This document shows, piece by piece, positions 45,943-48,189 of a stretch of 55,987 nt of DNA (the stretch's first letter is position 1; every line of letters begins with the position of its first letter). The notes below the pieces were generated by a model. It was given only the letters and a program-made list of their open reading frames with translations. It made no database searches and was not told where the DNA came from. The stretch spans positions 1 through 55,987 of IMG/VR virus record IMGVR_UViG_3300044675_001342, one strand, 5' to 3'. A program made the translations under genes and the position numbers. The stretch is from a virus.

Positions 45943-45966
45943 GATAATTCCTTACATACAAGTGAA

Positions 45967-46021
45967 GTGCATCAATCGGTATGTCGTCTGCCGGGACAGT
46001 TTGATGCACCGGGAACCCCGG
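45967..46021. repeat. Inverted repeats downstream of tRNA-Tyr
   Basis: GTGCATCAA (45967-45975) and TTGATGCAC (46001-46009) pair perfectly around 25 bases; CCGGG (46009-46013) and CCCGG (46017-46021) form a second small hairpin. Together they may form a processing or termination structure between the tRNA genes and the virion gene. Confidence 0.5.
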
Positions 46022-46066
46022 AGTGGCTCCAATATATCACGGTTTTGCAGGTGGTGCAAAAATATT

Positions 46067-46153
46067 TGGTGGAAGTGGAAAGATTCGAACTCTCTCACCC
46101 TAACGAGAACGGGGTTACAGCCCGTTGCGCCTCTCCAACTGCGCCGCACTTCC
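46067..46153 (-). tRNA. tRNA-Tyr (anticodon GTA)
   Basis: 87 bases. Acceptor GGAAGTG pairs with CACTTCC. D stem GCGC/GCGC, anticodon stem ACGGG/CCCGT with loop CTGTAAC (anticodon GTA), a long variable region typical of bacterial tRNA-Tyr, T arm with TTCGAAT, and an encoded 3' ACCA. Positions 8-9 are CG instead of the usual TA, a mild oddity. It may supplement translation or replace cleaved host tRNA. Confidence 0.93.
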
Positions 46154-46173
46154 GTGCGGTCAATATCGTTGAT

Positions 46174-46251
46174 TGGTCTGTGCGGCAGGATTTGAACCTG
46201 CGACCCCTCGGTTCCAAACCGAGAACTCTGACCAGACTGAGCTACGCACAG
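46174..46251 (-). tRNA. tRNA-Pro (anticodon TGG)
   Basis: 78 bases. Acceptor CTGTGCG/CGCACAG, D stem GCTC/GAGT, anticodon stem CTCGG/CCGAG with loop TTTGGAA (anticodon TGG), T stem GCAGG/CCTGC with loop TTCAAAT, and an encoded 3' ACCA. All arms are intact. It lies 20 bases upstream (in transcription order) of tRNA-Tyr. Confidence 0.95.
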
Positions 46252-46587
46252 TGATCTTGGGTCGCGGGAGGGATGGGGTTTTCATGATGGGCGGAGTATA
46301 CAGGTTGTTGGTGTGGGGTAGGTTCTCGTGGGTTGACCTCTTCCCCGAACGGCGCAGACATAGCCCTGCACCCGGCGTGTACCTTCGTCTTTCGTTCTGT
46401 ACACCAACACGCATGGGGACTGGTTTGTCAGACTTTGTGTCTGCTGGTCACCGGCAGCTTTCCCGATAAGACCAACCCCCATGCGTGTTGGCTCAAGGTC
46501 GCCCTCCCCCCGATACTTTGTCCCGAATTTCACGGGCTTGGCCTACTTCACCAGTTCAAGACCGATTACAGACCTCTGACTCCGCAA
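46252..46587. other. Non-coding region between HNH gene and tRNAs
   Basis: 336 bases without a convincing gene; ORFs here are short and lack ribosome-binding sites. Its main content is a nested set of inverted repeats (46377-46491, separate entry). The remaining sequence is G/T-rich on the plus strand. It would be transcribed as a leader of the tRNAs or serve as a structured DNA site. Confidence 0.6.
46377..46491. repeat. Nested inverted repeats, possible structured RNA or DNA element
   Basis: An outer perfect 15-base inverted repeat, CCAACACGCATGGGG (46404-46418) and CCCCATGCGTGTTGG (46477-46491), extends inward with TGGT/ACCA after two mismatches. Inside are CAGAC/GTCTG (46429-46443) and CTGCTGG/CCGGCAG (46441-46457), which overlap and so are alternatives. 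Just outside, GTGTAC/GTACAC (46377-46404) forms another hairpin. The set could fold as a branched RNA or act as a recognition or replication site. Confidence 0.65.
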
Positions 46588-47172
46588 TCATACCAGTTTG
46601 TTGGACTTTTTTAGGTTTTCTTCTTGGGTGATGACCTCCATGTTCCAAGGTACATGAAGGCCGCAGACACCCTCTCCTTGTAGTGGGATGATGTGGTCTA
46701 CCGCATGGGGTATTTTGGTTGCGCGACTCAAGGCAATTGCCATCCGGTAGTGAAACCGAATCTCCAACTTTTGCTCTGTTGTCAACCACTTAGGCGTAGC
46801 GTCCCGAAACCGACGCCGCCGCACGTTCACCAGTTCTTTGTACAAATCCGGGTTTGCCGTTTTATGATTTTTACGATGAAAATGTTTCTCCTTAGTAGGC
46901 CTAGCTTGCGCACGCGCCTTGACTGCTTCTGTGTTTCTGGCGTAGTAATCTTGCTTGGCTTTGACGCCTGCGGATGATTTGTTGTAGCTAGCGTAGTAGT
47001 CTGCCCGCTTTGCCAACGCTTCAGTCCATTCGACCTTTAAGCACTCTACGCAGGCCCCCTTGGTTTTGCGGGGGGCTACATGCCCATGTTTGCAGGGCTC
47101 TCCCGTAAAATAATACTTGGCTCCCTGTGCTTTGGCTTCAGCACGAGTCTTAGGTAGGTTTGTGGTGTCCAT
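46588..47172 (-). CDS. HNH homing endonuclease next to tRNAs
   Basis: 194 residues from the ATG at 47172 (AGGGG upstream). The N-terminal part (YYFTGEPCKHGHVAPRKTKGACVECLKVEW) has a Cys-His cluster likely to bind zinc. The C-terminal nuclease core is AVDHIIPLQGEGVCGLHVPWNMEVITQEENLKKSNK, an HNH family with D-H, central Gly-Leu-His-Val-Pro-Trp-Asn and the final N-x-x-K-S-N. Such genes are free-standing mobile endonucleases in phages. It lies between the capsid gene and the tRNAs. Confidence 0.88.
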   Translation of the reverse strand: MDTTNLPKTRAEAKAQGAKYYFTGEPCKHGHVAPRKTKGACVECLKVEWTEALAKRADYYASYNKSSAGVKAKQDYYARNTEAVKARAQARPTKEKHFHRKNHKTANPDLYKELVNVRRRRFRDATPKWLTTEQKLEIRFHYRMAIALSRATKIPHAVDHIIPLQGEGVCGLHVPWNMEVITQEENLKKSNKLV

Positions 47173-47207
47173 GTTAGCCCCTGTGTTACGATACAGGTAT
47201 TGTACAC

Positions 47208-47239
47208 TCAAAAGAAAGGGAGCCGAAGCCCCCTTTCTT
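47208..47239 (-). terminator. Terminator after the major capsid gene
   Basis: On the minus strand AAGAAAGGGGGC-TTCG-GCTCCCTTTCTT followed by a short T run: a 12-pair stem with one mismatch and a UUCG loop. A smaller hairpin, AACCC/GGGTT (47242-47260), precedes it. It would partly end transcription after the capsid gene, so the capsid message is favoured over downstream genes. Confidence 0.75.
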
Positions 47240-47271
47240 AAAACCCGTTTTTAGTGGGTTATTTGGTCGTT

Positions 47272-48189
47272 TTAAGACGAACCGGGCGAACCGAACATGC
47301 CTAGCGGATCACTCCAGCCAAACGAATAACGCTCGCGAGCTTTGTATCGCACGTTACCGGTGTCGAAGTCACCATCCATTGAGTTAGTCAGCGCAGTACG
47401 CTCGAAGTGCTTCATGCCGTTAGGAACGTCGGTGGTCAAATACCAGCCGTTCGTATCGGTAAAGAAGTTGTTAATGGCATAACCTTCAGGGATCGAACCA
47501 TTGTTCTTCAGTGCGTTGATATCGTTGTCGGTAGTGCCAACACGCAGGCTGGTCTCCAACAGACGGGTAGCAACGAATTGCAGAGCAGGCGGAATAAGCA
47601 ACTTGCGTGGCTTAGCCGCAATCAGCAGGCCGCGCTCATCAGTCCAAGCTGCGATCTGAATAACTGCGTTTTCCAACGAAGTCTCATTCAGGTCAGCATT
47701 GGTAGATGGACGGTTGCTGTTGGTTCCACCAGAGACCAAGGGGTGCGCGGTAGAGAACAAAGGCACGCCATCGCCACCGTAGTACACGGAAGAGTTGGTG
47801 AAGCCGTTGTTGATAACCGATGCAGCCTTAACTTGCTTGGTGTAAGCCATAGCACGGGCCAAAGCCTTGGTGTAACGAGCCGACAGGGAGTCGTACAAGT
47901 TATCTTCCACAGCCTCTTCCGTGATGGAGAAGCCCAAGGCAATGGTTTCGTGGCTGTACCGAGCGGTGAACGCTTCCTGCGCATTGTCATAAGCAATAGC
48001 AGAGCCCTCGTTCTTCACTGGTGCAGCACTGAAGCCGGACAGCTTGGTTTCTTCTTCAAAGCTACGCTCCGATTTCTCGGTTTCGTAGATTTCCTTGTGT
48101 TGCTCACCGTAGCGTGCGTACTCCAAACCGAACAATGCGTTCAATCCGGGTAGCAACTCTTTAAGCAGTTGTGCGCGTGAAATAGCCAT
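47272..48189 (-). CDS. Major capsid protein (Mu T / HK97-fold type)
   Basis: 305 residues. Recognisable blocks: LLPGLNALFGLEYARYGEQHKEIYE, FGFSITEEAVEDN-like helix (LGFSITEEAVEDNLYDSLSARYTKAL), GGDGVPLFSTAHPLVSGGTNSNRPST, AKPRKLLIPPALQFVATRLLET and KHFERTALTNSMDGDFDTGNVRYKARERYSFGW. This is the layout of the Mu-like head subunit family with HK97 fold. Position after the scaffold and decoration genes and the dedicated terminator agree. Confidence 0.9.
   Translation of the reverse strand: MAISRAQLLKELLPGLNALFGLEYARYGEQHKEIYETEKSERSFEEETKLSGFSAAPVKNEGSAIAYDNAQEAFTARYSHETIALGFSITEEAVEDNLYDSLSARYTKALARAMAYTKQVKAASVINNGFTNSSVYYGGDGVPLFSTAHPLVSGGTNSNRPSTNADLNETSLENAVIQIAAWTDERGLLIAAKPRKLLIPPALQFVATRLLETSLRVGTTDNDINALKNNGSIPEGYAINNFFTDTNGWYLTTDVPNGMKHFERTALTNSMDGDFDTGNVRYKARERYSFGWSDPLGMFGSPGSS

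Follow-up and report, generated by a model that had tools for sequence, protein, structure and literature searches.

A leader hairpin in a modular phage RNA cassette as a candidate gate for tRNA-like modules

The tRNA cluster of phage T4 contains the stable RNAs C and D, which are not tRNAs. Phages and prophages also carry the structured RNAs GOLLD and ROOL, for which Rfam profiles exist, and GOLLD linkers sometimes contain tRNAs, as described in PMC12286853. Here we analyze an RNA element centered on a hairpin, termed H, in a window of 55,987 nt (virus record IMGVR_UViG_3300044675_001342 over its positions 1 to 55,987). Of the known kinds, the nearest is that of the structured phage RNAs associated with tRNA islands, GOLLD and ROOL among them; like the H units these are phage RNAs of unassigned function, often near tRNA islands, whereas they are single large RNAs and the H units are short, modular, exchangeable and strand-sharing (PMC12286853). 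No model in Rfam 15, those of GOLLD and ROOL included, matched the H and module sequences at gathering score, and with the window element none matched even at E values of up to 5. The H units resemble T4 RNAs C and D as non-tRNA RNAs in a phage tRNA setting, and no module is known to be common to the two. A search of the article texts in the open PMC literature returned no description of the H family, and the exact motif letters occurred in no paper. The family is thus apparently undescribed, with an unnamed candidate possible in large RNA screens, and both Rfam 15 and annotation appear to lack it. The Pas sRNAs were considered and set aside, being other prophage sRNAs with no link to H in the available part of PMC13192938.

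The element lies on the minus strand in the gene order capsid (47272-48189), HNH, RNA element, tRNA-Pro, tRNA-Tyr and a gene for a 167-aa protein (Table 1). A preliminary description had reported a perfect 15-base inverted repeat with an inward extension, internal hairpins and an adjacent hairpin, and all of these were confirmed: the arms fall at 46404-46418 and 46477-46491 with a 58-base spacer, the extension brings them to 21 nt at 90%, and the adjacent hairpin, GTGTAC/GTACAC, proves to belong to a separate module, M3. The start given there, 46377, is no natural boundary, and the unit backed by evidence spans 46307-46574 on the minus strand. No other perfect 15-bp inverted repeat with a loop of 100 nt or less occurs in the window, and 200 dinucleotide shuffles of its entire sequence produced 2 altogether, so the repeat is real and not a product of chance. 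Folding of a 241-nt stretch around H is stronger than that of shuffles on both strands (z = -3.3 for minus and -2.7 for plus).

Table 1 Positions of the RNA unit and neighboring features in the window.
Feature	Position	Strand	Basis
tRNA-Tyr (GTA)	46067..46153	-	tRNA scan
tRNA-Pro (TGG), next gene downstream of H unit	46174..46251	-	tRNA scan
Module M3	46307..46408	-	alignment of 10 rows, pairing vs shuffles
M3 closing stem GUUGGUGU / ACACCAAC	46408-46401 / 46314-46307	-	alignment
Shared strand GUUGG (part of R')	46404..46408	-	two inverted repeats, two-state energies
Hairpin H	46404..46491	-	inverted repeat, fold vs shuffles, 136-hairpin family (108 loci + window)
H 3' arm (R')	46424-46404	-	inverted repeat
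H variable tip, two small hairpins	about 46425-46470	-	fold
H 5' arm CCAACACGCATGGGG	46491-46477	-	inverted repeat
Module M5, upstream, ends at H	46492..46574	-	alignment of 11 rows, pairing vs shuffles
HNH / endonuclease VII-like gene, independent neighbor	46588..47211	-	PHROG endonuclease VII, E 1.1e-14
Terminator-like hairpin after capsid gene, upstream of HNH + RNA unit	47215..47235	-	terminator scan

The proposal that H is a target, a scar or a partner RNA of the neighboring HNH nuclease draws on their adjacency, which is seen in the window only. Among 80 loci with HNH homologues H is present at 2, both of them the window's own sequence, and the preliminary suggestion of a nuclease target or scar is left unsupported. 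We compared the locus with syntenic sequences, of which 78 of 81, the window included, had both the capsid and the 167-aa flanking genes. The interval between these genes is shorter than 250 bases in 55 of the 78; at the same place HNH occurs in nine, H in two and tRNAs in one, the window. H and HNH co-occur in the window alone, since the locus L082 has H at the syntenic place with no HNH and eight relatives have HNH with no H. On this comparison of syntenic relatives the HNH gene is unrelated to H, the two occurring independently, and we regard a link between them as scarcely credible. Phages L346-L349 encode an identical 167-aa protein yet lack H, and the absence of H from close relatives, some with an identical neighbor protein, indicates that the element is accessory and was recently gained or lost. 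The interval as a whole (45943-47271 in the window; also L346-L424) is an accessory-gene hotspot, mostly empty (<250 bases), which in some relatives contains HNH, H units or tRNAs, or else other inserts, of up to about 1.3 kb. In L082, H and another module stand directly behind a hairpin with a T run that trails the capsid gene, and this hairpin, just 5' of H, resembles the terminator-like site at 47215-47235. The latter call is weak by itself, since the region contains 2 such sites and shuffles are expected to contain 2.0.

The H 15-mer matches at least 120 viral contigs, and among the matches listed 108 of 120 contigs carry the full hairpin, which with the window gives at least 136 hairpins. 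Family members share a 5' arm CCAACACGCATGGGGATTG and a 3' arm CAGTCCCCAGCCGTGTTGG separated by 20-110 nt of unlike sequence, and most have an internal loop that sets CAU against AGC (100 of 136) or against AGU (22 of 136). The window hairpin is the single case out of 136 in which CAU stands fully paired against AUG in place of the usual CAU/AGC loop, and it is an unusually stable, perhaps locked, variant. Tips are exchanged between stems, as 29 nt of the window tip recur unchanged in L030 on a different stem. Tandem arrays of two or three copies are found in 23 of 109 records (window included), at a spacing of 46-257 nt that leaves no room for an ordinary gene. Degenerate H units, read by eye, occur in L010 after 2110 and L033 after 1777 (CCATCACGCATGGGTTT... 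and CCAACACGCATGGGCC..., respectively), with the outer arms kept and a weak inner stem. A direct DNA search with 339 bases of the window against isolate phages returned two records, both short chance-level matches. The 19-base H arm has one match in 84,980 prokaryote genomes, which we judge to be chance because by our own reading it is located inside a recA-like reading frame.

The preliminary claim that no coding gene accounts for H was confirmed: the lengths of the 136 hairpins are evenly distributed over the three frames. H as a coding sequence was rejected in the same way, as open reading frames overlap it mechanically but the lengths of hairpins and of linkers spread over all frames. Mechanical reading frames of at least 90 aa overlap H at 40 of its 93 loci and the alpha module described below in 43 of 119 copies. 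In the window ARAGORN reports only tRNA-Pro and tRNA-Tyr and does not score the element as a tRNA, and it finds no tmRNA in the window or in 50 H loci scanned. A tag-frame test for tmRNA likewise gave a linker length with no frame preference.

Two modules border H, M5 on its upstream side and M3 on its downstream side; homologues of both were aligned and their pairing was compared with shuffles. In M3 (10 rows, 8 distinct; nine relatives and the window) 92.5% of cells are paired over 30 pairs, 9 of which have changed on both sides, and in M5 (11 rows, 10 distinct) the values are 96.5%, 23 pairs and 12; none of 500 shuffles reaches either result, the folds having been predicted from the very alignments tested, which somewhat favors each fold. 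Shifting the partners by 1-3 columns abolishes the support in both modules. Many of the changes are G-C to G-U steps. The strong compensatory changes in the homologues of M3 and M5 identify a structured RNA, which supports the preliminary suggestion of a small structured RNA. In the closing stem of M3 most changes fall on one side of a pair, and a single pair has changed on both sides. M3 also has inner arms, and the last arm continues directly into the 3' closing strand in the fashion of a tRNA. The closing stem and this contiguous last arm are the two features that suggest a tRNA-like fold for M3, a second module rarer than alpha.

A commoner second module downstream of H, which we call alpha (TGAATGCGCAGGCTGATGCGC ... 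GCCGGAGATCAGCACCGGC), matches 173 of 50,697 isolate phage records, and beneath most of the listed matches there is no annotated feature. It is composed of a closing stem of 7-8 bp, a 2-nt AA linker, a D-like arm and a T-like arm that leads directly into the 3' closing strand, and its D-like and T-like loops form a six-base (6-bp) loop-loop contact. Among 119 distinct alphas 38 were short enough to align and 33 were aligned; in these rows 22 pairs, the loop-loop contact included, are paired in 96.3% of cells, which 0 of 500 shuffles attained, and 12 pairs and 70 cells have changed on both sides. The 7-bp closing stem has both-sided changes at six pairs. The layout of a tRNA, with an acceptor stem, D- and T-arms and an elbow contact, was found in alpha only; the evidence for an elbow contact and for a 2-nt linker concerns alpha and not M3. 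Alpha resembles a tRNA, or the tRNA-like domain of tmRNA, in its closing stem, D- and T-like arms, D/T loop contact and a slot common with tRNA; it differs in having no anticodon arm, with 26-160 nt of unrelated sequence at that position, in the letters of the T-loop and in the rarity of an encoded CCA (10 of 119, no claimable enrichment). A search for an Rfam identity of the P1 unit gave only chance-level matches, among them tRNA-Sec at E 3.5.

When H and alpha of mEp460 served as the query, 1726 of 5426 complete genomes of E. coli gave a full or partial match, which in 435 of them covered more than 80% of the query length. Many alphas, for example the UUGGAUG group, have no upstream H. Gene-free stretches that hold an H+alpha unit, 3.3 kb in Klebsiella phage UPM 2146 (L205 1397-4731) and 2.1 kb in IME11 (L210 473-2557), are possibly whole RNA arrays, and the annotated hypothetical proteins mEp460_036 and mEp460_037, which overlap the alpha module at L203 2202-2755, are probably non-genes. 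Known phage small RNAs are present in phages with H or alpha, namely isrK (L203 77-153) and int-alpA (L017 5427-5494). Another module, GGGTTAGCGCC ... CACTGCTTTATGTGAGC in this form or a closely similar one, recurs in L002, L028, L038, L045, L051, L053 and L082 (2450-2535 in the last), placed in different outer stems as an upstream module, an H tip or a second module. A short hairpin type, GACGCCGGA..CGTAACCGGCAC, lies upstream of or near H in several proteobacterial phages (L206, L212 and L205).

The positions of H and alpha relative to other genes bear on whether H might instead be a cis-acting leader of the antitermination or attenuator type, acting on transcription or on the downstream gene with no tRNA-like RNA involved. 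The gene downstream of H is co-directional at 72 of 84 loci (from 93 distinct H loci). In HK620 the late promoter and the qut site stand immediately ahead of alpha and the late terminator lies beyond it, and in PAJU2 alpha is located between a Q-like gene and the endolysin, a lysis gene. However, other members stand beside tRNA genes, as in P1, where alpha lies between tRNA-Thr and tciA, or upstream of tRNAs, as in Aeromonas ST4, Klebsiella UPM 2146 and IME207; the downstream genes are mutually unlike by their first residues, and no terminator-like site was called on either strand at 46300-46580 in the window. We therefore consider such a leader to be distinctly unlikely.

The slot behind H can also be filled by a tRNA. 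In the prophage of E. coli ETEC4085 the feature behind an mEp460-type H is an annotated tRNA-Arg, which starts within the H match and occupies the exact place of alpha in mEp460; the overlap between the hairpin match and an annotated tRNA-Arg is found in prophages of two E. coli strains, of which ETEC4085 is the one inspected. At default settings ARAGORN calls a tRNA that starts inside the H arm in L037. Loosened settings give matches starting in the slot in L033, L034, L037 and L040, and are unusable because reversed sequences gave 141 matches. What fills the slot thus depends on the phage: it may be an M3-like module or the tRNA-like alpha, and in at least one case it is an annotated tRNA. 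Co-directional tRNAs behind H in the window, together with the hairpin directly 5' of tRNA-Arg in E. coli, lend support to the earlier idea of a tRNA-array leader, and the presence of a tRNA in 5 of 50 H loci scanned indicates that the linkage to tRNA is loose in this set. None of the observations suggests the replication site that the preliminary description also named.

The anatomy of H also recalls the attC sites of integrons, DNA-level sites with the core RYYYAAC/GTTRRRY that border gene cassettes and are served by a cognate integrase. These sites likewise have two conserved arms, an internal loop, a variable tip and tandem copies, and H could by analogy be a DNA-level recombination site whose folded single strand inserts cassettes. 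Integron sites border gene cassettes, whereas the H copies have no ordinary genes between them, and the letters of the H arms, read by eye, do not appear to fit that core consensus. The G-U-keeping changes and the loop-loop pairing within the modules indicate RNA, and an annotated tRNA is able to fill the slot. This makes an attC-type site very improbable.

The feature that connects H with its modules is a strand that belongs to both: the 3' arm of H also provides the 5' side of the stem that closes the next module, and the two pairings therefore compete. Three strands are involved, namely R in the 5' arm of H, R' in its 3' arm and a second R at the 3' end of the module, and the two pairings are mutually exclusive. 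In the window GUUGG can pair either with the 5' arm of H or with the 3' closing strand of M3. As the H arms are nearly invariant within the 15-mer set, support for the pairing comes from the diverged H+alpha units. We tested 116 of the 119 distinct alphas (3 had no upstream sequence), and in 61 the strand ahead of alpha has a pairing partner in an upstream arm at z<-3; in 60 of these 61 the pairing shares 3 nt or more with the closing strand of alpha. The pairing reaches -22 kcal/mol in 72 of the 116, compared with 14.4 in shuffles. Of 58 distinct units, 49-54 are capable of either pairing at each position from -3 to -6; toward the end of the alpha closing stem, at -7 to -9, this overlap fades. 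When one unit is kept per distinct 7-mer (n = 16), 9 are capable of either pairing at all four positions, compared with 3% and at most 19% in permutations. Individual pairs between R' and the 5' arm come from an optimised duplex, and the evidence for them consists of these shuffle, permutation and two-way figures only.

Two-state energies were calculated for 88 units, the 136 hairpins less 33 with no module end recognized by pattern and 15 with a repeated tip. The median difference is 2.8 kcal/mol in favor of H, and 49 of 88 units lie within 3 kcal/mol; these are model energies with no tertiary contacts. In the window H is favored over the alternative pairing by 9.0 kcal/mol, a gap that suggests its hairpin may be locked and not switching.

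The R repeats could also be recombination borders for the swapping of RNA cassettes, with no switch and with R' complementary merely in order to close H. A single H+alpha unit distinguishes two P1 records: where one reads hairpin-alpha-hairpin, the other has just one hairpin, continuing straight into the module that follows. The loss of this unit fits recombination between repeats. The letters of the 5' arm and the 3' strand agree at 81% of compared positions, and tips and modules are shuffled among phages. However, the border sequence changes many times with both pairings kept, and the fading of the overlap at -7 to -9 is what is expected if both helices matter. Recombination borders are therefore unlikely as the whole account, though an alternative to be taken seriously.

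Our preferred reading, to which we assign a probability of roughly two in three, is that H is the leader hairpin of a minus-strand phage structured-RNA cassette and gates the folding or processing of a tRNA-like module. Comparison among phages reveals the structures, the modular exchange and the shared strand, and from these we infer a sequence of events. The cassette, which in the window is ordered M5, H, M3, tRNA-Pro and tRNA-Tyr, would be transcribed as one RNA, and during its synthesis H would fold first and sequester the acceptor-like strand. The emerging 3' strand of the module would then displace the lower stem of H, or alternatively a nuclease such as RNase III might trim H. The freed tRNA-like module could then fold and be processed, so that H would serve as a folding or processing gate, or chaperone hairpin, for tRNA-like RNAs. 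Since the module is accessory and quickly exchanged, we offer the guess, more likely wrong than right, that once released it is a tRNA mimic occupying a host factor.

More broadly, it is possible, with the odds somewhat against it, that tailed phages share an undescribed modular RNA class in which a leader hairpin and an anticodon-less tRNA-like module are joined by an R-R'-R switch and moved like tRNA genes, that is, leader-gated viral tRNA mimics. The structured RNA family itself is present in many cultured phages and prophages, including the laboratory phages P1, HK620 and mEp460. If such a class exists, it would be common enough to matter, given the 173 isolate phage records and the unit parts in 1726 of 5426 E. 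coli genomes, and it would be relevant to phage-host conflict over the translation machinery or to tRNA-targeting defence. If the tRNA-like reading is true, the family would provide a naturally occurring strand-exchange switch made of RNA, available in many sequence variants, and would prompt the question of why phages should keep tRNA mimics next to genuine tRNAs.
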